Of a stretch of DNA of 64,000 nt, positions 47,087-56,256 are shown piece after piece (position 1 is the first letter of the stretch; the number at the start of each line of letters is the position of its first letter). The DNA is from Dyadobacter luteus. GTDB taxonomy: Bacteria > Bacteroidota > Bacteroidia > Cytophagales > Spirosomataceae. Where the stretch lies: positions 496,001 to 560,000 of the forward strand of contig NZ_QNUL01000001.1 in the NCBI RefSeq assembly GCF_003383615.1, written 5' to 3'. The position numbers and the translations under genes are program-made. The notes under the pieces were generated by a model that saw only the letters and a list, made by a program, of their open reading frames with translations, did not search any database and was not told the DNA's origin.

Positions 47087-47284
47087 ATGAAGCATAAATC
47101 CGTCAAATTTTTAATGCTATTAGGGTTATCAACCTACATTCCTAAGACTGTTCTTTCGCAACTGCCGCTTGTTCCAGGAATGGACCAGCATGCTCATAAT
47201 GAAAAAAGGCTTTTTACAGCCTTTTTTCATTTGTTTTTTGTCCTAAATAATTTTCATCCGAAAAATGCCTTATCCAAGTCTTGA
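47087..47284 (+). CDS. questionable small exported peptide or gene relic
   Basis: Reads MKHKSVKFLMLLGLSTYIPK then TVLSQLPLVPGMDQHAHNEK, a signal-peptide-like start followed by a His-containing stretch, then runs through the terminator at 47198-47231, which no real gene should do. It may be the start of a decayed exported protein. Kept with low confidence. Confidence 0.2.
   Translation: MKHKSVKFLMLLGLSTYIPKTVLSQLPLVPGMDQHAHNEKRLFTAFFHLFFVLNNFHPKNALSKS
47198..47231. terminator. bidirectional terminator between marR and the convergent SDR gene
   Basis: Perfect 13-bp stem (47198-47210 starting AATGAAAAAAGGC, 47219-47231) with an 8-nt loop. It contains A- and T-runs on both sides and lies between two convergent genes. 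Confidence 0.85.
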
Positions 47285-48063
47285 TGAAATGCTTCTGCAC
47301 CCAATTCTAAACGCTTGTTGTAATCACCATTTGCAACAGTGCCAACCAAGTAACGCAGTTGGTTTTTCCCGTCTGTGGCAGCTTCATATATCACTTCTGA
47401 AACAGTTTCCGCAGGAGCAAGACTATTGATGACCTCGTCGCTGAAAAATACTTTTTTGAAGCCGTCGAAGAAATCGTCATACGCCGGGTGCTCAGGAATA
47501 ACCAATGAACGTCCTACGAAATCGGTTTTCGTGGGTCCAGGCTGAACTGTTTTAATTTGAATACCCAAACGGTTTAATTCAAACGCCATACTTTCTGTCC
47601 AACCTTCAATAGCCCATTTTGTAGCATGATATAACGAAAAGAAAGGATAAGCGACTAATCCACCAATCGATGAAATTGTAATAAACACACCCCCTTTGTT
47701 TTCTCTGAAATGCGGAATAAACTCCTTTGTCACTCGGATAATGCCCAAAAGATTGGTATTTACAACCTGTTCAATTTCTTTGTCTGTCGTCCCTTCCAGC
47801 GCGCCAACAGTTCCGTAACCTGCATTATTCAACACAACGTCAATATTTCCCAGTGAAACAGCCTTTTCATATGTTGATTTTATTTGTTCAACATTAGTAA
47901 CGTCTAACGGAAGCAACGTAATCTTTTCGTATTCCTCTAAATCTGTTACTGTTTGTGGGTTTCGCATTGTTGCAATTACTTTCCAACCTTTGTTTGCAAA
48001 ATAAATTGCTGTTGATTTTCCTATACCCGATGAAGCACCTGTAATAAAAATTGTTTTTGCCAT
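47254..48063 (-). CDS. SDR-family oxidoreductase (second copy)
   Basis: Short-chain dehydrogenase of 269 residues, paralogue of 44358-45158. Cofactor motif TGASSGIG (8-15), ATMRNP (likely NADP), NNAGYG, Ser in ISSIGG and active site YHATK. The nucleotide sequence is visibly AT-richer than the first SDR gene, as is the adjacent AraC gene, so this pair may have come from another donor. It begins 82 nt after the end of the AraC gene on the same strand. Confidence 0.9.
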   Translation of the reverse strand: MAKTIFITGASSGIGKSTAIYFANKGWKVIATMRNPQTVTDLEEYEKITLLPLDVTNVEQIKSTYEKAVSLGNIDVVLNNAGYGTVGALEGTTDKEIEQVVNTNLLGIIRVTKEFIPHFRENKGGVFITISSIGGLVAYPFFSLYHATKWAIEGWTESMAFELNRLGIQIKTVQPGPTKTDFVGRSLVIPEHPAYDDFFDGFKKVFFSDEVINSLAPAETVSEVIYEAATDGKNQLRYLVGTVANGDYNKRLELGAEAFHQDLDKAFFG

Positions 48064-48145
48064 TGTACTATATATTTTGTTGTTGCAAACTTAGGATGAG
48101 AACAACCTTATGTTTTAACAAAAAACAATCACATTATTACAAAAA

Positions 48146-49042
48146 TCAATCAATACGAAACTGCCTTGGTGTTATACCGGTATATTTTTTAAAGAAATTA
48201 TTGAAATGTGTATTTTCTTTAAATCCTAATGCAAACGCAATTTCAGAAACGTCTTTTTTCGTATGTTTCAAAAGGATTTTTGCTTCAACTAAAATTCGTT
48301 CCTGGATAATGACAGACGTTGGTTTATGCAAAACTTCCTGTAATGCTTTGTTTAAATGATTGACGTGAATGGATAATTTTTCTGCAAAATCTGATGCGGA
48401 ACGTAAAGGAAACGCACCAATATCTTCAACAGGAAACTGACGCTCTAATAATTCTAAAAATTGTGTGGTAATTTTTTGAGAAGCGTTATTATAAAATTGA
48501 GAAATAGGTTTAATAGGTTGCAGTTTTTCTGCATTATACAGAAGCTCAAAAACCATAATTCGCATTTTGTCGTATTTGTGCGGGTGCTCAGATGTCCACT
48601 CCGTTAACATTTCGGCAAATAATTCCTTTACCCACCTGGCCTGAGTGTCTGTCAATTCAATTATTGGTAAACTCTCGGGTTGAAAAACAGAATAGTCTTT
48701 CGGATTGCCGAAATGATGAAAAAAACGCTCTGTAAACACACACGAAACTCCATTTTGCTCATTTCCGATTTGCTCCCAATTATAGGGCACTTGGGGATTT
48801 GCAAAAAGCAATGCCTGTTTTTTGATTTCAATAGTTTTATCCGAAAAATGCACTTTATTTACCCCCTGTATCAAGCTTATTTTAAAATAACCTCTGCGAC
48901 TGTAAGGAATAGGTTTTATACTGCACCCTAACAAATCATTAAAAGCAAACACATTAAAATGCCCGATTTCATTTTGCAAAATTTTTGGAATAGCCTTGAA
49001 ACGTTCTGTATAAAAATCTTCTAATGTTTCTATATTATTCAT
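48146..49042 (-). CDS. AraC-family transcriptional regulator (second copy)
   Basis: Regulator of 298 residues. N-terminal cupin-like sensor (about 30-140, RRGYFKISLIQGVNKVHFSD, LLFANPQVPYNWEQIGNEQN) and C-terminal AraC helix-turn-helix pair (DFAEKLSIHVNHLNKALQEV, VSEIAFALGFKENTHFNNFF). It is upstream of the SDR gene on the same strand, the reverse of the gene order in the first SDR/AraC pair. AT-rich like its partner. Probably controls the SDR gene. Confidence 0.9.
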   Translation of the reverse strand: MNNIETLEDFYTERFKAIPKILQNEIGHFNVFAFNDLLGCSIKPIPYSRRGYFKISLIQGVNKVHFSDKTIEIKKQALLFANPQVPYNWEQIGNEQNGVSCVFTERFFHHFGNPKDYSVFQPESLPIIELTDTQARWVKELFAEMLTEWTSEHPHKYDKMRIMVFELLYNAEKLQPIKPISQFYNNASQKITTQFLELLERQFPVEDIGAFPLRSASDFAEKLSIHVNHLNKALQEVLHKPTSVIIQERILVEAKILLKHTKKDVSEIAFALGFKENTHFNNFFKKYTGITPRQFRID

Positions 49043-49641
49043 TTTTCAAAGATACAAAATTCAAATAATTGAATCATGGTAAGGATAAATAAAAAAGGAA
49101 GGAACAATCTACACTTGCAGCTTCCTTTTTTCCTATTAGAAATCACTACTGTCGGATTGTGAGGTTGTTTAAACAGTTAGTAACCGTTCACGGCTTAACG
49201 TTCGGACTGGATTTTACCACTAAAGCCAAATACGAACCACTTCGCCCTCCCTGACGACAATATCTTGTTACCAGTGGGGCTTTTGTCGACCGATTGAATG
49301 GATGTAAAAGTTTCATAGATACATTTTGTAATAGTGATCAAGGAAATAGCTTGCAAGGTACATTGGGAAAATTGGTACCTCCCTAATAGGATGAATACAT
49401 TTCATATCCTGATAAACGACAAACGGAAAGGAAGCGCGGGTATCACAACTCTGAAACTTGAAGACCCTCTGGTGGAGAGGAAAGAATTTAGCTAAGAGCT
49501 AAATTACTGCAAAGACAATCTGGCATGCAGTATTTACGACAACCAAATCACATTTAATTTTGATACATAAGGGAACGATAAAAGTGAACAACCAGTTGTA
49601 GATACATTAATGAATGCGCATGTATTCAAATGATATAGACT
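49043..49641. other. 600-nt gap with hairpin and gene debris
   Basis: A hairpin with arms AAAAAAGGAAG (49091-49101) and CTTCCTTTTTT (49121-49131) looks like a terminator, although no obvious gene ends there. A short plus frame at 49391-49495 reads MNTFHILINDKRKGSAGITT and stops. The right end carries the arsR operator. No intact gene was found. Confidence 0.45.
49613..49629 (+). promoter_or_regulatory. shared ArsR-type operator, copy 1
   Basis: AATGCGCATGTATTCAA, ending 12 nt before the arsR start codon at 49642. The identical 17-mer occurs in the same orientation relative to the paralogous arsR gene at 56193-56209. The central ATGCGCAT is a perfect palindrome. Confidence 0.65.
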
Positions 49642-49917
49642 ATGGATTCGAAATCACTTACTAAGATGGCAAAGTCGCTCAGCGACCCACATCGTCTGCT
49701 GCTGCTGAAAGAAATTGCAAAGGGAACAAACAGAGGTTGCGCAGATCTGTATGAATTCGTTCCGATAAGCCAACCATCCATGTCGCAGCACCTGAAATCT
49801 CTTACGGAATCCGGCTTGATCGAAACCTATAAAGAAGGACGTAATATGCGCCTGGCTATTAACGACGAAAAGTTGCAGGAGTTGACAAGCTTTCTACAAT
49901 CCTTGAAATCAAATTAA
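49642..49917 (+). CDS. ArsR-family winged-helix regulator, single-cysteine type (copy 1)
   Basis: Small dimeric repressor of 91 residues. The HTH lies at about 38-70 (EFVPISQPSMSQHLKSL, wing TYKEGRNMRLAI). The metal-binding ELCVC motif of arsenic sensors is absent; there is only one cysteine, C33 in NRGCADLYEF. That suggests a thiol-redox or electrophile sensor rather than a metal sensor. About three quarters identical to the regulator at 55903-56172. It is followed by a terminator and the ohr gene. Confidence 0.9.
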   Translation: MDSKSLTKMAKSLSDPHRLLLLKEIAKGTNRGCADLYEFVPISQPSMSQHLKSLTESGLIETYKEGRNMRLAINDEKLQELTSFLQSLKSN

Positions 49918-49928
49918 CAGACTCCCGC

Positions 49929-49962
49929 CCCGCTGATATTAACGGACAGCGGGATTTGTTTT
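49929..49962 (+). terminator. terminator after arsR copy 1
   Basis: CCCGCTG (49929-49935) and CAGCGGG (49947-49953) form a GC-rich 7-bp stem followed by ATTTGTTTT. It begins 12 nt after the arsR stop. Confidence 0.6.
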
Positions 49963-50002
49963 AACCATATGCATAATCGTTTGCTTATATATTTATATGG
50001 TT
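49963..50002. promoter_or_regulatory. inverted repeat upstream of ohr
   Basis: AACCATAT (49963-49970) and ATATGGTT (49995-50002) are perfect reverse complements with a 24-nt spacer, 77 nt before the ohr start. Candidate operator; the binding protein is unknown. Confidence 0.35.
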
Positions 50003-50079
50003 ATATACGGTTAGGAGCTCTTAGAATGAAAGAAGGAATTTAGGCATTAAAAATATATTTAAACATTAATAAAGTAGTA

Positions 50080-50502
50080 ATGAAAACAATATATACAGCC
50101 GTAGCTACGGCAACAGGAGGCAGAAACGGGCAAGTAAAATCAGATAACGGGGTTTTAGATATCCAGGTTAGAGCGCCCAAAGCTATGGGTGGGACAAATG
50201 ATGATTACAGTAATCCCGAGCAATTATTTGCGGCCGGTTACGCTGCTTGTTTTGATAGTGCGCTCAGCCATACGATCCGCTTGGAAAAGGTAAAAACCGG
50301 GGAAACGTCGGTGACTGCAAAAGTGTCGATCGGGCCTATTGAGAATGGCGGCTTTGGATTGGCAGTAGAACTGGCCGTAAACATTCCGGACGTGTCAATT
50401 CAGGAAGCACAGCGGCTTACCGAGCGTGCTCACCAGGTATGCCCTTACTCGAATGCCACCAGAAATAACATTGAGGTAAAACTTACGGCCACGAATGACT
50501 AA
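50080..50502 (+). CDS. ohr: organic hydroperoxide resistance protein (OsmC/Ohr)
   Basis: Thiol peroxidase of 140 residues that reduces organic and fatty-acid hydroperoxides. Both catalytic cysteines are present: C57 in YAACFDSAL and C121 in QVCPYSNAT; the Arg and Glu that activate the peroxidatic Cys are likely R15 and E47. The typical NPEQLFAAGYAACF block identifies Ohr rather than OsmC. It is in the redox island between the two arsR genes. No OhrR gene is adjacent; the ArsR protein could replace it. Confidence 0.93.
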   Translation: MKTIYTAVATATGGRNGQVKSDNGVLDIQVRAPKAMGGTNDDYSNPEQLFAAGYAACFDSALSHTIRLEKVKTGETSVTAKVSIGPIENGGFGLAVELAVNIPDVSIQEAQRLTERAHQVCPYSNATRNNIEVKLTATND

Positions 50503-50634
50503 TCAACTCCTCACAGTGAGAAGCGGAAGTAAATGTGGCATTCTTTCCAATCATTGCAACCAAATTGATTGTCAGATTAGAAACCATATCGGAAAGCTGC
50601 AACAAGGATACATTACAGGTAAGTGACACAGATT

Positions 50635-51651
50635 ATGGATAAAAATAACATAGCGTATTCTATTTTAGAACTTGCCATTGTCTCGCAAGGGGATACTATA
50701 AAACAGACCTTGAATAATTCTTTGGCACTGGCCAAAGAGGCAGAAGCAATAGGCTACAAACGCATCTGGTTTGCCGAGCATCATAACTCTGATAGTGTAG
50801 CCAGCAGCGCTACATCCGTATTAATAGGTTACGTGGCAGAAAACACGGATACTATCCGGGTAGGTTCGGGTGGCATCATGCTTCCCAATCACTCGCCTCT
50901 TCTTATAGCGGAACAGTTTGGAACCCTTGCTCATTTATATCCAGGCCGCATTGATTTAGGTCTGGGAAGAGCGCCAGGTACGGACCAGGCAACTGCTCAG
51001 GCCATCCGGTCAGACTTTATGAAAGCCGCCCATTCGTTTTCCGGAGAAGTGACCAAAATTCAGAATTACTTTTTGCCGGAAAATAAGAATGCCAGTGTAA
51101 GGGCAACCGTTGCAGAAGGCACGGGTGTACCGCTGTATATCCTGGGATCGAGTACAGACAGTGCATATCTGGCAGCAGAAAAAGGTCTCCCCTATGCTTT
51201 TGCCAGCCATTTTGCATCAACCCATTTACTAAACGCGCTAAGGATCTACAAGCAGGAATTTAAATCCTCTGAGTTTTTGCAGGAGCCCTATACCATCGCC
51301 GGAGTAAATGTCTTTGTTGCAGATACGGACCAAGAGGCCCAGGCACTATTTACTTCGTTAATCAGAATGTTTTGGGGCGTATTGACCGGAGCCAAAGACT
51401 TACTGCACCCACCAACAGCAATGAGCGGGGAGTTAATGGAAATGTTCCAACATCCTACACTGAATCAAATGCTTAAATATTCCTTTGTGGGAAGCAAACA
51501 AACCGTAAAGAATAAGATACGGGCATTTCTGGAAGAAACGGGTGTGGATGAGTTAATAACAGTATCAACCATGTATGAGATCAACGACCGGATAAAATCT
51601 GCCCGGTTATTTGCCGAAATCATGAAGGAAATAAATACAGAAAGTAAGTAA
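50635..51651 (+). CDS. LLM-class flavin-dependent oxidoreductase (YhbW/MsnO8-like)
   Basis: Bacterial-luciferase-like flavin monooxygenase of 338 residues from the ATG at 50635 (a GTG 12 nt earlier is possible). Seen: RIWFAEHHN, SVLIGYVAENTDTIRVGSGG, LPNHSPLLIAEQFGTLAHLY, PGRIDLGLGRAPGTDQATAQ, and the C-terminal SFVGSKQTVKNKIRAFLEET. These are hallmarks of the luciferase-like MsnO8/YhbW group with unknown substrates. The stop overlaps the next start by one base (TAATG), so the two monooxygenases are co-translated. Confidence 0.9.
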   Translation: MDKNNIAYSILELAIVSQGDTIKQTLNNSLALAKEAEAIGYKRIWFAEHHNSDSVASSATSVLIGYVAENTDTIRVGSGGIMLPNHSPLLIAEQFGTLAHLYPGRIDLGLGRAPGTDQATAQAIRSDFMKAAHSFSGEVTKIQNYFLPENKNASVRATVAEGTGVPLYILGSSTDSAYLAAEKGLPYAFASHFASTHLLNALRIYKQEFKSSEFLQEPYTIAGVNVFVADTDQEAQALFTSLIRMFWGVLTGAKDLLHPPTAMSGELMEMFQHPTLNQMLKYSFVGSKQTVKNKIRAFLEETGVDELITVSTMYEINDRIKSARLFAEIMKEINTESK

Positions 51652-52775
51652 TGAAAATCAAAAAACAGTTAAAGCTTGCGGCGAATATTGATGGTCCCGG
51701 TTGGAATTTTGTGGGTTGGCAACATCCCGATATACCGGCCGATGCCAGCGAAAATATTGATTTTTATATCCAGCAGGCTAAGCTCGCAGAGTCAGCAAAA
51801 TTTGATACCTTATTTCTGGTAGATGTAAGCCATGTGGGCCCCGGAAATATTCCCCACTACCTGAGTATGTTCGAAGGTGTTTCTGTTATGTCTGCCCTTG
51901 CTATGCATACCAAAAATATAGGGCTTTCGGCTACCGTTTCCACTTCCTATGCAGATCCTTACAATGTTGCCCGGCAAATACTTTCGCTGGATAAAATCAG
52001 CAAAGGCCGTGCATCCTTAAATGCAATTACTTCAAACCCGGGCGGCATGGTCAATTTCAGCCGCGGGCATCTGGGTAAGGCAGACCAATATCCCATGAAT
52101 AAAGAATTCATGGAAATCGTGCTGGGACTTTGGGACACCTATGAAGATGATGCTTTCATCCGCGATAAAGAAAGCGGCGTTTTTTTAAACCCCCGCAAAA
52201 TGCACAAGGTGAATTACCACGGGAAATATTTTTCGGTGGAAGGACCACTAAACCTGAGCCGATCTGTTCAGGGGCGGCCGGTGCTCTACACAGCCGGGAT
52301 GTCGCAAAAGTTTATTGATCACGCCACAAGCTACACCGACGGTGTGTTTACCCATGGCAATACTGTTGAAGAAGCAGCGGCAATTGCCAGCGCATTAAGG
52401 CGTCAATTAATCCAGAAAGGAAGAAGACCGCAGGATTTTATTGTGGCGATCTCACAAAACCCAATCGTTGGCAAAACCGAACAGGAAGCCCGGGAAAAAT
52501 ACAGGGAACTTTTACAATTGATTCCCTACAACAGTTTGCCCCGCCCATTATTTTTTGGTTCAGCCGACAAAGTTGCCGATCAGGTGCAGGAGTGGTATGA
52601 GACAGGCGCTATGGATATGCTGATCCTGCGTCAGGACCACCCCCATGGATTGCAGGATTTTATTGAACTGGTCGTACCTATTCTGCAGCAGCGCGGAATA
52701 TTTCGGACCGAGTACGAGTCTGACACGCTTAGGGGCAATTTGGAACTACCCAGGCCGGCATTCAGAAAAATCTAG
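51651..52775 (+). CDS. NtaA/SnaA/DszA-type FMN-dependent monooxygenase
   Basis: Luciferase-like monooxygenase of 374 residues. Typical blocks: FVGWQHPDIPADASENIDFY, FLVDVSHVGPGN, TSYADPYNVARQILSLDKIS, RASLNAITSNPGGMVNFSRG, and PVLYTAGMSQKFIDHATSYT. The family (nitrilotriacetate, pristinamycin and dibenzothiophene-sulfone monooxygenases) usually has about 440 residues; here the C-terminal part is shorter. It needs reduced FMN, perhaps from the nitroreductase encoded 160 nt downstream. Substrate unknown. Confidence 0.88.
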   Translation: MKIKKQLKLAANIDGPGWNFVGWQHPDIPADASENIDFYIQQAKLAESAKFDTLFLVDVSHVGPGNIPHYLSMFEGVSVMSALAMHTKNIGLSATVSTSYADPYNVARQILSLDKISKGRASLNAITSNPGGMVNFSRGHLGKADQYPMNKEFMEIVLGLWDTYEDDAFIRDKESGVFLNPRKMHKVNYHGKYFSVEGPLNLSRSVQGRPVLYTAGMSQKFIDHATSYTDGVFTHGNTVEEAAAIASALRRQLIQKGRRPQDFIVAISQNPIVGKTEQEAREKYRELLQLIPYNSLPRPLFFGSADKVADQVQEWYETGAMDMLILRQDHPHGLQDFIELVVPILQQRGIFRTEYESDTLRGNLELPRPAFRKI

Positions 52776-52935
52776 GGTTCTCATGCAGAATCAGCTGGAA
52801 GGCAGAACCAAAAGGCTGCCTGCAAAAAACTAAACTATTCACTTTACACCAACCAGGTAGCGTGCAAACTGCTAAAAAATAGAAGAGCCGAAGACTTTCC
52901 GGCAATTAGTGAGCTGTTACATTACTTATAATTTT

Positions 52936-53649
52936 ATGGAAAAATCAGCATTTGACATCCCGAATCTTGAAAATAGTACCCACCTTACTTTTTCACAGGT
53001 ACTTCGTTTAAGAAGATCCTGTCGTGGTTTTTTAGAAACACCAGTGCCTGATCAGATGATTACTTCCGTATTGGAAGATGCAAAATTGGCACCATCCAAC
53101 TGCAATACCCAGCCCTGGGAAACGCATATCGTTTCGGGAAACAAACTCAAAGAACTCTCAGAAGCGCTCCTAAAAGAGAACAATGCTGAAAGGTTTTCGC
53201 CCGATTTCAGCTTTGATCTGGGTGATTATCACGGCCGTTACCAGCAGCGTCACTTCAATCTGGGTAAGGCCATGTATGAAGGATTTGGCGTTGAACGGGA
53301 TGACAAAGAAGGCCGCAGAGAAGTTTCAGATCTGAATTACAAGTTCTTCAATGCCCCACATCTTGCTATTCCCTTTATGCCCTCATTTGGCGACAATGTG
53401 CGTATGGGTGGCGATATAGGCATGTATGGCCAGACATTTCTTTTATCTCTTACAGCGCACGGACTTGCCGGTATCCCGCAGACATCGCTGGGCTTTTTCG
53501 CAGGAGTCATCAGGGAAATACTGAATGTGCCAGGCGAGCTTAAAATGCTATTTGGAATATCCTTCGGTTATGCCGACGAGGATGCGCCAGGTAATTCGTT
53601 CAAATTAGGAAGGGATCCCATTACCAGCAGTGTCACTTTTCATCAATAA
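52936..53649 (+). CDS. nitroreductase-family flavoprotein
   Basis: FMN-dependent nitro/quinone reductase of 237 residues from the ATG at 52936 (an upstream in-frame start at 52909 adds an unlikely leader). Seen: LRLRRSCRGFLETPVPDQMI with the FMN-binding RxSxRxF-type motif, APSNCNTQPWETHI, DIGMYGQTFLLSLTAHGLAG, and FGISFGYADEDAPGN. It probably reduces nitroaromatics or quinones with NAD(P)H, and could also supply FMNH2 to the two monooxygenases. It belongs to the island bracketed by the arsR pair. Confidence 0.9.
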   Translation: MEKSAFDIPNLENSTHLTFSQVLRLRRSCRGFLETPVPDQMITSVLEDAKLAPSNCNTQPWETHIVSGNKLKELSEALLKENNAERFSPDFSFDLGDYHGRYQQRHFNLGKAMYEGFGVERDDKEGRREVSDLNYKFFNAPHLAIPFMPSFGDNVRMGGDIGMYGQTFLLSLTAHGLAGIPQTSLGFFAGVIREILNVPGELKMLFGISFGYADEDAPGNSFKLGRDPITSSVTFHQ

Positions 53650-53777
53650 TATATAGTATAAAGTCAAAAAGAGCAGCAATAGAAAAATGCTCATCGATTT
53701 AAATTCGGGCACCGTAGCAATATGGAATTGACCCAAGGGTTTGAAATAAAAATTATTAGTAACAAAAATAAGAAAAC

Positions 53778-54521
53778 ATGAAGATAGGAATCGTAGGAAC
53801 AGGTGCCATAGGAAGTCTTTTAGCCCAAAAGTTTTCTCAGGCAGGCCACCAGGTAAAAGTAACCAATACCAGGGCAATGCCTGAACTGGAAAAAATAGCT
53901 GCCGGTCTGGGAGTAGCAGCAGCCACTATACAGGATGTAGTCAAAGACGTGGATGCCATCATCTTCTCAATGCCCTTCAATGCTTACAAAGACCTGCCAA
54001 AAGACTTATTAAAAGAAGTACCACAGGATGTGGTGGTAATGGATACTTCAAACTATTATCCGTTCAGGGATGGCGAAATTAACGAATTAGAGCAAATATC
54101 TGAGAGTGAATATATTTCCGGGATATTAAATCGTCCGCTTGTTAAGGTGTTCAACAATATGCTGGAAGGCACCTTAAAATACAAAGGCAAACCGGCCGGC
54201 GCGGAAGGAAGGGTGGCAATTTCAATAGCGGGTGATAACCAGGAACACAAAAAGATAGTTACTCAACTGGTTGATATTACAGGTTTTGATACCGTTGATG
54301 GCGGAAGTCTGGCCGAATCATGGAGACAGCAGCCCGGCACGCCCGCGTATTGTACTGAATTAGGTGAAGCCGAATTAAAACAGGCACTTGCTGATGCTGA
54401 AAAAGGAAAAGCCCCTGCAATCCGCGACTTCATCATGGACAATCTGAGGAAAATGGACTCCTGGCCTTCATACGAAGAAATTTTAGCTGGTAACCGTTTA
54501 CATGAGATGGGCAAAAATTAG
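53778..54521 (+). CDS. F420-type NAD(P)-binding oxidoreductase
   Basis: Protein of 247 residues with a Rossmann start MKIGIVGTGAIGSLLAQKFS (GxGxxG at 7-12), then VKVTNTRAMPEL, DAIIFSMPFN and VVVMDTSNYYP, as in the F420-dependent NADP oxidoreductase family (NADP_oxidored F420). In bacteria without F420 these proteins act as NAD(P)-dependent reductases of unknown substrates. Same strand as the nitroreductase gene 128 nt upstream. A convergent gene follows. Confidence 0.87.
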   Translation: MKIGIVGTGAIGSLLAQKFSQAGHQVKVTNTRAMPELEKIAAGLGVAAATIQDVVKDVDAIIFSMPFNAYKDLPKDLLKEVPQDVVVMDTSNYYPFRDGEINELEQISESEYISGILNRPLVKVFNNMLEGTLKYKGKPAGAEGRVAISIAGDNQEHKKIVTQLVDITGFDTVDGGSLAESWRQQPGTPAYCTELGEAELKQALADAEKGKAPAIRDFIMDNLRKMDSWPSYEEILAGNRLHEMGKN

Positions 54522-54548
54522 CCTATTCACCAACCCAGATGACTTTAG

Positions 54549-54581
54549 TGCTCACAGGCAGCAATGGCTGACCTGTGAGCA
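54549..54581. terminator. convergent hairpin between the F420-type and NmrA genes
   Basis: TGCTCACAGG (54549-54558) and CCTGTGAGCA (54572-54581) form a perfect 10-bp stem between two convergent genes. There is no T-run on either side, so termination is assumed from position. Confidence 0.5.
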
Positions 54582-54590
54582 AAAGTATAT

Positions 54591-55499
54591 TTACGCTTTT
54601 TGATTAGCCGAGCTTATTAGCACATCTTTATGCTCCATTAAATACTCCCGGACTGTTTTTGCGGGCCTACCGAGGATATAGGGAATATCATTTTGAACCA
54701 TCGACATGTAAGACATTCTTCCATCCAGCATTTGGCTGACAAATTCGATGTTTGCACTTGCATACCAACTGTCCGCACCGTTAGCTATCCATGCTTCAAT
54801 CAGTTGCTTAAATTCTTCAAGGCCTTTTTCTTCGCATTTGATTTCAAGTCCGGTTACCTCACTGATAAGCTGGGCGATTTCCTTTCCATTATGGCTCTCT
54901 ACACTCAACCAATAATCTTTACCAGCGTGCCGCTGGGGGCCGTCCACAAGAACCTTTGCGGCAACCGCAGCTATATCACTTGAAGCAATATAACCTACCC
55001 TTCGATCTTCCCAGTAAGTAGTGTAGGTGAAGTTCTTTGGCAGGTAAGCACCTGTAATGGCCTCCATAAACATATTCGGATGAAGGTGTGTCCAGGCAAT
55101 ACCGCTGGCTTCAATATACTTTTCGATCATCTGGTGCCAGGCAAAATGCGCATCGGTGGTGTCCCACTCAGCGAAAACACCCACATGCACGATATGGCTA
55201 ACGCCTGCCTTCTTTGCAGCATCCACCAATGTTTTACTCTGTGTGAGCATGGCAACCGTGTATCCGGTTAGCAAAAAGACCCGGTCAACACCGGCAAGGG
55301 CAAGCGCGAATGTCTTCGGGTCATCAAGATCCAGGTATTTGCAGTCCTTTCCTTCACGGGTAAGCTGCTCTACTTCCTGCTGTTTGCGTGAGGTGATCCG
55401 CAGGTTAACAGCTTTGCCTTCAAGATCTTTTACAACCTGACTACCGATCGTCCCGCTAGCGCCCAAAACAAGGACCGTCGGATATTGATTATTTTCCAT
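54591..55499 (-). CDS. NmrA-like NAD(P)H-binding reductase
   Basis: Atypical SDR of 302 residues from the ATG at 55499 (MENNQYPTVLVLGASGTIGS); the longer in-frame start at 55598 was rejected because the Rossmann motif sits just after 55499. Seen: GASGTIGSQV (GxxGxxG), LRITSRKQQEVEQL, VDRVFLLTGYTVAMLTQSKT, HIVHVGVFAEW and WTHLHPNMFMEAITG. The family covers redox sensors and azo/quinone reductases. It is on the minus strand, upstream of arsR copy 2 in that direction, inside the redox island. Confidence 0.87.
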   Translation of the reverse strand: MENNQYPTVLVLGASGTIGSQVVKDLEGKAVNLRITSRKQQEVEQLTREGKDCKYLDLDDPKTFALALAGVDRVFLLTGYTVAMLTQSKTLVDAAKKAGVSHIVHVGVFAEWDTTDAHFAWHQMIEKYIEASGIAWTHLHPNMFMEAITGAYLPKNFTYTTYWEDRRVGYIASSDIAAVAAKVLVDGPQRHAGKDYWLSVESHNGKEIAQLISEVTGLEIKCEEKGLEEFKQLIEAWIANGADSWYASANIEFVSQMLDGRMSYMSMVQNDIPYILGRPAKTVREYLMEHKDVLISSANQKA

Positions 55500-55902
55500 T
55501 TGAATTTGAATTAAAAAGTAGTATAAATTTAATTTCGGCTCGTAGTGCCATAAGTGTATTTTAAGGCATCCCGTCTGTAAAGCCGGTAGCAATGCCAAGA
55601 AGCAGGCAAAAGCTCTAAAAGGATCCTATCTTTAATAGTATATGGCCAGCAGGTAGCTTTTAAGGCCAAGGCAATGGCGACGCCAGAGGAAATGTATAGA
55701 CATAGGAGAAAAATAAAAAATTAATAGATAATTATAAGTTGATGTATTAGGGCAAAAAAATTTGTGATGATTGCAGGCTGTTAGTGATACTTATTGATCA
55801 CTGGTGTTAGCCTAAAACAAACAGTTAAACACATAAGCAACAATTGATACAAATAGGCAAAAAAAAGCCACTCTGGTGGCTTTTGGGAAAACACGGTTTG
55901 AG
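55500..55902. other. 400-nt intergenic stretch
   Basis: No gene is recognised. It should hold the promoter of the NmrA gene on its left side and carries the arsR copy 2 terminator at its right end (55856-55884). Confidence 0.5.
55856..55884 (-). terminator. terminator after arsR copy 2
   Basis: On the minus strand AAAAGCCAC - 4-nt loop - GTGGCTTTT followed by more T residues (plus-strand arms 55863-55871 and 55876-55884). It lies 18 nt after the arsR stop. Confidence 0.9.
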
Positions 55903-56172
55903 CTAACGTAAAGAGCGCAAAAAGTCTTCCAGTTCTTGCACTTTCTCTTCAACAATAGCAACTTTCATGTAACGTCCTTCCTTGCGGGATTCTACCAGAC
56001 CGGCTTCTGATAATGCCTTCAAATGCTGGGACATAGAAGGTTGACTAATCGGTACAAATTCAAATAAATCAGCACACCCCTTATTGGTACCCTTTGCTAT
56101 TTCCTGTAATAATGCTAGCCTGGTAGGGTCACTGAGCGATTTGGCCAGTTTAACAAGTGATTTACTATCCAT
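55903..56172 (-). CDS. ArsR-family winged-helix regulator, single-cysteine type (copy 2)
   Basis: Repressor of 89 residues, about three quarters identical to 49642-49917. The HTH (FVPISQPSMSQHLKALSEAG) and wing (SRKEGRYMKVAIVEEK) are intact. It has one cysteine, C33 in NKGCADLFEF, at the same position as its paralogue, and no metal-binding ELCVC motif. Preceded by the same 17-nt operator. It closes the redox island on the right and points leftward, mirror to copy 1. Confidence 0.9.
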   Translation of the reverse strand: MDSKSLVKLAKSLSDPTRLALLQEIAKGTNKGCADLFEFVPISQPSMSQHLKALSEAGLVESRKEGRYMKVAIVEEKVQELEDFLRSLR

Positions 56173-56192
56173 GCTATTCTATTAAATTTTTA

Positions 56193-56209
56193 TTGAATAC
56201 ATGCGCATT
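56193..56209 (-). promoter_or_regulatory. shared ArsR-type operator, copy 2
   Basis: Minus-strand AATGCGCATGTATTCAA, ending 20 nt before the arsR copy 2 start at 56172. Identical to 49613-49629. Confidence 0.65.
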
Positions 56210-56256
56210 TATTGATGTCTTAACCAATCTGGTTATCGGATGGTTCAGATTACATG

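Follow-up and report, generated by a model that had tools for sequence, protein, structure and literature searches.

The stretch of DNA considered here, called the window, comprises 64,000 nucleotides (nt) of the 6.95-Mb genome of a soil-dwelling Dyadobacter (G000, C1:496001-560000), and its point of interest is a pair of small ArsR-type regulators, ArsR1 and ArsR2, that stand near a group of redox enzymes (Table 1). The strands of the genes reveal two convergent sets, each headed by its own arsR: arsR1-ohr-LLM1-LLM2-nitroreductase-F420ox on the (+) strand and arsR2-NmrA on the (-) strand, where LLM denotes a luciferase-like monooxygenase and F420ox a reductase of the F420_oxidored fold. This arrangement rules out one unit with the arsR genes at its borders, which is how the first-pass annotation of this DNA had pictured the island. 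Each arsR gene is accompanied by two operator-like sites, O1 before it and O2 after it, a layout suggestive of a circuit in which an ArsR protein would control both its own gene and the detoxification genes behind it.

Table 1. Features of the two arsR-headed gene sets (window coordinates)
Feature	Position	Strand	Description and evidence
arsR1	49642-49917	+	91 aa, one Cys (Cys33); winged-helix ArsR-family repressor; Pfam HTH_20/HTH_5, NCBIfam HTH_metalloreg subfamily, AlphaFold 2 (AF2) model
arsR2	55903-56172	-	89 aa, one Cys (Cys33)
O1a	49605-49628	+	Putative palindromic operator of arsR1 (CATTAATGAATGCGCATGTATTCA); holds most of the 17-mer; upstream conservation at 19 arsR orthologues
O1b	56194-56217	-	Putative palindromic operator of arsR2 (CATCAATAAATGCGCATGTATTCA); motif searches, O1 comparison across loci
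Hairpin after arsR1	49929-49962	+	Terminator-like, CCCGCTG...CAGCGGG with T-rich tail; fold z-score -3.7; same-place hairpin in orthologous loci
O2a	49972-49995	+	Putative second, diverged operator (CATAATCGTTTGCTTATATATTTA) at the presumed promoter for the genes that follow; most conserved non-coding block; O1-matrix match, nominal p=0.03
Hairpin after arsR2	55863-55884	-	Intrinsic-terminator-like; terminator scan, fold scoring
O2b	55826-55849	-	Putative second operator after arsR2 (TATCAATTGTTGCTTATGTGTTTA); 1 mismatch to joint motif; p=0.006
ohr	50080-50502	+	Ohr-family organic hydroperoxide peroxiredoxin; TIGR03561, 173.9 bits (cut-off 88.85)
LLM1	50635-51651	+	MsnO8-family luciferase-like oxidoreductase; TIGR03558 above cut-off; start set from L045 orthologue
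LLM2	51651-52775	+	NtaA/DmoA-family FMN-dependent monooxygenase; TIGR03860 above cut-off
Nitroreductase	52936-53649	+	Nitroreductase-family protein; PF00881
F420ox	53778-54521	+	F420_oxidored-fold NAD(P)-binding reductase; PF03807; not a true F420 reductase
NmrA	54591-55499	-	NAD(P)-binding protein of the NmrA family, on the arsR2 side; PF05368; start set from L045 orthologue

The two regulators are 74% identical across 89 aa, and each has its single Cys at position 33, exactly as the first-pass annotation had claimed. Both exceed the gathering scores of PF12840 and PF01022, which places them in the ArsR/SmtB family, and fold comparison matches them to ArsR structures with a probability of 1.00. 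The segment ISQPSMSQHLK, corresponding to the recognition helix, is the same in both. The AlphaFold model (mean pLDDT 82) has Cys33 as residue 1 of the third helix, and this Cys is conserved in 11/11 proteins of alignment A1 and in every translated operator-linked copy. The claimed lack of a metal motif also stands: the metal sensors of the family (ArsR, CadC, SmtB, CmtR) employ several Cys/His ligands, and here the whole protein has one Cys. Neither the CmtR equivalog (score 38.5, cut-off 150) nor the BigR equivalog of NCBIfam (39.7 against 155 bits) is reached.

With regard to the upstream DNA, the 17-mer AATGCGCATGTATTCAA has exactly two copies in the window, at 49613-49629 (+) and 56193-56209 (-), and no further window site lies within 3 mismatches of it. 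The identical 17-nt site reported before both arsR genes is therefore real, though it is only the off-centre portion, from one side, of a larger palindrome, AATNNATGCGCATNNATT (O1, core ATGCGCAT), whose centre lies 24 nt from the start codon of arsR1 and 32 nt from that of arsR2. At one mismatch or fewer, this palindrome occurs at 4 places in the genome, 3 of which precede arsR paralogues; the remaining one (C8:131754) falls within nuoL and was dismissed as a chance match. The reversed control pattern gave 0 matches.

The same site is found 5' of all 19 operator-type arsR genes examined, which belong to Dyadobacter, Hymenobacter and one Spirosoma, and it is centred 22-35 nt ahead of the start codon. 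At these loci the core ATGCGCAT, or its variants TTGCGCAT and ATGCACAT, is embedded in AAY..ATGCGCATGTRTT, and the consensus reads AAYNNATGCGCATGTRTT. Such a position in 19/19 loci is that of the autoregulatory palindromes of the ArsR/SmtB family, and O1 is probably one of them. Conservation upstream of orthologous arsR genes had been set beforehand as the test on which the 17-mer would stand or fall, and the 17-mer stands: the conservation extends across three genera. Exact copies of AATNNATGCGCATNNATT also turned up in G016 and G019, genomes with no close ArsR orthologue; they amount to 2 independent sites in 38 genomes, against a chance estimate of ~1, and were set aside. In G019 (L052, L053; C1:2140975, 4154531) the exact palindrome stands ~50 nt 5' of two near-identical, duplicated FAD-dependent monooxygenase genes, which may be chance.

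Is O1 the only site? The first-pass annotation had described one per arsR, and the alignment of the DNA 3' of the gene points to two. A hairpin with a T-rich tail is followed there by CATaAaCGTTTGCTTATRTATTTAT, the top-conserved non-coding block, hereafter O2, which has the form TTGCTTATGTRTT and lies ~365 bp downstream of O1. A matrix built from O1 only picks this block as the top match within 150 nt after arsR in 18/19 loci, 51-58 nt past the stop codon, with nominal p values of 0.002-0.052 per locus, which were not multiplied because the loci are related and hence not independent. Three plasmid loci outside the matrix set have the same O1/O2 layout; on the Hymenobacter volaticus plasmid, O1 is ATGCACAT, and the site after arsR has the same right half, ACATGTGTTGA. 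In the Dyadobacter genome, a joint O1/O2 motif at one mismatch or fewer retrieves six arsR-linked sites and one site inside a peptidase gene.

Some attempts to go further were abandoned. Relaxing the joint motif to 3 mismatches, in search of a wider regulon, gave 37 forward and 36 reverse sites where the control gave 30 and 25, which is noise. The O1-O2 spacing (361-393 bp) is too variable to argue for helical phasing or DNA looping. A sigma-70-type promoter scan returned no more hits than chance would, and its model is inappropriate for Bacteroidota. A consensus terminator scan did not include the hairpin after arsR1 among its listed terminators.

As for the enzymes, Pfam and NCBIfam bear out the proposed gene content (Ohr, two luciferase-like monooxygenases, a nitroreductase and NmrA), and no NCBIfam equivalog scores above its cut-off for the nitroreductase-family protein. 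The "F420-type reductase" has the corresponding fold, but it is not a true F420 reductase, as its score against NpdG is 32.6 for a cut-off of 149.8. An SDR and AraC pair adjoins the island (window 47254-49042), and SDR-AraC pairs (~37-40% identical) occur in the arsR cassettes L043, L046 and L011.

Beyond the window, the system has a patchy spread (20/390 genomes of the order), and its relatives display the same arsR head followed by an MFP-RND-OMF pump plus the same enzymes. In the Dyadobacter locus L082, an arsR2-type arsR, the pump, two LLMs, F420ox and NmrA follow each other on a single strand. The order in Hymenobacter (L076, L077) is arsR, pump, second arsR, F420ox, NmrA, LLM, LLM, and that in Spirosoma (L079) is arsR, pump, second arsR, LLM, F420ox, old yellow enzyme, Ohr, F420ox, NmrA. 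In five other Dyadobacter loci, an arsR1-type gene is paired with LLM/F420ox/SDR/AraC cassettes. Copies are also plasmid-borne in Spirosoma oryzicola, H. swuensis and H. volaticus (L126, L127, L128, L129), a location that fits the patchy distribution. On these plasmids, the arsR-RND pump cassette carries redox genes except on L129, and on the H. volaticus plasmid unnamed3 the annotation breaks several pump and reductase genes into fragments, which points to decay or to errors in sequencing. Second arsR copies without an operator of their own sit within the pump-enzyme operon at L076 14577-14852, L077 7804-8079, L078 7621-7896 and L128 16404-16679; the second copy of L079 has none either.

These comparisons suggest that the ancestral cassette was arsR - RND efflux pump - redox enzymes. 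Relative to L082, BLAST places arsR2 and its flank directly against NmrA (window 55596/55597), with LLM1, LLM2 and F420ox inverted and the pump missing; the rest of the genome offers no RND match of more than 55% identity. On this evidence, the window island is a rearranged cassette that has lost the pump and has its enzyme block inverted and placed behind arsR1. D. koreensis (L045) has the same rearranged island, 96% identical and without ohr; the gap (window 50080-50502 against L045 8277-8571) is clean, and its edges lie in short AAT/TAAT repeats. In the tree, arsR2 groups with copy b of D. koreensis and L082, and arsR1 with a third paralogue and most Dyadobacter copies. Because these groups are distinct and supported, no recent local duplication took place, and the "duplicated pair" of the first-pass annotation becomes two lineages, which also occupy separate loci in other Dyadobacter. 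As a whole, the assembly looks like a conserved, mobile circuit for chemical detoxification.

Another question is what Cys33 does. In a profile alignment, it falls on the second Cys of the CC pair of RexT, that is Cys41 (numbering of PMC8960804), the peroxidatic residue of this ArsR-SmtB H2O2 sensor of Nostoc (PDB 7TXM-7TXO). As described in the same paper, CyeR, an ArsR-type protein that represses the old-yellow-enzyme gene cye1 of Corynebacterium glutamicum, is inactivated at the equivalent of RexT Cys41, and through the RexT alignment this critical Cys also coincides with Cys33. Thiol sensing by Cys33 is thus plausible. A H2O2-reducing mechanism like that of RexT is unlikely because the counterparts of Cys40, Arg61 and Asn77 are missing; covalent modification of Cys33 by an electrophile or an oxidant is the better guess. 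More distant ArsR relatives (L084 8371-8646, L086 10190-10465, L088 10707-10976, C34:354604-354876) have a CxxC motif, C30 and C33, of which the window proteins keep the second Cys only, and this suggests that the ArsR1/ArsR2 lineage retains one Cys of an older pair. In this outgroup, the best similarity between upstream and downstream sites equals or comes close to the maximum reached with shuffled sequence, and a two-site layout is not claimed for it.

From these data we infer how the circuit may work. ArsR1 and ArsR2 would be autorepressors of one operator family: a dimer on O1 would close the promoter of the arsR gene, a dimer on O2 would close that of the detoxification genes, and the hairpin would split the two transcripts. 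The inducer is most likely a xenobiotic that acts as an electrophile or oxidant; it would modify Cys33, where helix 3 begins, and the dimers would be released. As a result, arsR and the flavin- and NAD(P)H-dependent enzymes (LLMs, nitroreductase, reductases, NmrA, Ohr) would be expressed together. Paralogues that share operators would also regulate each other's units, including a third operon whose arsR has a nonsense codon. We consider this dual-operator circuit with Cys33 sensing, taken in its entirety, somewhat more probable than not. The response to electrophiles, quinones and hydroperoxides put forward by the first-pass annotation survives in part: the detoxification and redox gene content recurs across the arsR clusters of relatives, but hydroperoxide is not clearly the signal because ohr is optional in the island.

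A number of observations weigh against this proposal. The resolving Cys40 and the activating Arg61 and Asn77 of RexT align with Gly32 (Val in L049), with Thr/Ala/Ser55 and with position 71 (Leu, Val, other; never Asn). Tyr33-Cys34 replaces Cys33-Ala34 in two internal arsR copies, one at L078 and one on the H. swuensis plasmid; to judge from these copies, Cys33 is not essential to every member, and internal copies are devoid of operators. At O2, arsR1 has a weak match (p=0.03), and poor -7 promoter elements (4/6) make the promoter claim weaker in the window. Locus L080 has O1 and lacks O2. Further promoters could also fit into the 120-160 nt that separate several of the island genes.

Among the competing explanations, the one that fares best accepts the regulators and operators as described, and takes the signal to be a small molecule bound non-covalently, such as a substrate of the pump or of the LLMs, or a metal, with Cys33 in a structural role. 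NCBIfam places the proteins in a general subfamily named after metalloregulators, internal paralogues have lost C33 and kept the fold, and the RND pump of the ancestral cassette is typical of drug-ligand repressors. However, a single Cys cannot form the multi-thiolate sites of ArsR, CadC and SmtB, the invariant C33 occupies the redox position of RexT and CyeR, and the island genes are all redox enzymes. We hold this explanation to be rather doubtful, while giving it more room than any of the others.

Is O2 truly an ArsR operator? It could instead be only a core promoter or the site of another regulator, leaving ArsR purely autoregulatory. In four Hymenobacter loci, a perfect TTG-N19-TAnnTTTG promoter, in line with the TTTG/TAnnTTTG consensus of Bacteroidota (PMC6847099), lies over O2, and in some Dyadobacter loci the resemblance to O1 is modest. 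The position of this promoter also agrees with the proposed circuit, in which O2 covers the promoter of the detoxification genes. Yet the promoter consensus leaves the conserved flanks, CATtAaCGatTGC and TATGTRTTTA, unexplained. The clearest pair, O1 CATTAACGAATGCGCATGTGTTTA (L048) and O2 CATTAACGATTGCTTATGTGTTTA (L082), is identical at 21/24 positions, and right halves agree in the variant clade. Moreover, the O1-only matrix finds O2 at a constant offset, and O2 is not seen after the arsR copies that lack O1. This alternative is unlikely.

Whether the two regulators talk to each other brings in the third arsR unit of the genome. Its arsR (C1:605849-606115) is 90% identical to ArsR1, has a TAA at codon 27 and keeps both O1 and O2. 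The unit (C1:598-606 kb; L011 4189-9650) continues with an LLM (453 aa), two F420ox, SDR and AraC. The TAA may have arisen recently by mutation or may be an artefact of the assembly; if real, it would make this unit dependent on ArsR1/ArsR2. Cross-talk, as anticipated in the first-pass annotation, is favoured by the shared operator and is expected because ISQPSMSQHLK is identical in the two proteins and because intact operators accompany a broken repressor in the third unit; as far as the sequence goes, it would link all three units. The opposite case, two separate regulators with a site and a signal each, would draw on their different lineages, the 26% sequence difference and the divergence of the operators outside the core, but the core and one full half of the site are identical, and we judge it still less likely than the previous alternative. 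The two 17-mers might be duplication leftovers, but it is scarcely credible that chance, or recent copying without function, accounts for the repeat and the pairing: because the Hymenobacter proteins are only ~70% identical to ArsR1, the core, unchanged even in orthologues of another family, has outlived the adjacent DNA, which has diverged.

What do these genes add to the picture? To our knowledge, few stress repressors have been mapped in Bacteroidota. The analysis supplies a defined pair of putative operators, a defined set of target genes and a single Cys as candidate sensor for an ArsR lineage that has no experimental characterisation in the papers searched, and no description of this lineage, its two operators or the RND/LLM cassette was found in them. 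Tentatively, and with less confidence than in the circuit itself, this may be an undescribed detoxification module of Cytophagales spread by plasmids: an ArsR with one Cys that descends from CxxC relatives, with a strong O1 and a weak O2 ~365 bp apart, a two-step response (autoregulation, then the detoxification operon) and a regulon shared by several paralogous copies within one cell, which includes the broken-repressor operon. Since plasmids of Spirosoma and Hymenobacter carry the cassette of pump and flavoenzymes, tolerance to some natural toxic compound may be transferable. In turn, the pump-less variant of the window and the third, broken-arsR unit are natural experiments on cross-regulation by paralogous repressors.

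Several known systems offer a comparison. The thiol-responsive ArsR repressors BigR, YgaV, SqrR and HlyU share the fold and part of the sequence with ArsR1 and ArsR2. Their two cysteines are in other helices. The CxxC ArsR-RND units of the same taxonomic order, L084, L086 and C34:354604 among them, encode related ArsR proteins (38-49% identical) with an MFP/RND pump behind them; they differ by the C-x-x-C pair in place of a single Cys and by the absence of the ATGCGCAT operator. RexT has the same fold, and in addition to Cys41 its DNA-binding Arg26 has a counterpart, Arg18; the window proteins are without equivalents of its vicinal Cys40, Arg61 and Asn77, and no thioredoxin gene adjoins them. 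CyeR, as described in PMC8960804, is likewise a small member of the ArsR family linked to a gene for a flavin reductase, with its key Cys at the place of RexT Cys41; it is reported to pair this Cys with another at a distance of seven residues, whereas ArsR1 and ArsR2 have one Cys, two putative operators per gene and a larger cassette. In Pseudomonas aeruginosa, PyeR is an ArsR autorepressor whose HOCl-induced operon, pyeRM-xenB, comprises a transporter and a xenobiotic reductase (PMC7950407). By analogy, this logic appears to be that of the arsR-RND-LLM/old yellow enzyme units, the likeness being one of ArsR fold and logic, with an MFS transporter in place of RND. The combination of ArsR autorepressor, transporter and flavin reductase is already known from CyeR-cye1 and pyeRM-xenB (PMC8960804, PMC7950407), and it recurs as one unit in L079/L126, L082, L076 and L128, while the window retains it with the transporter lost.

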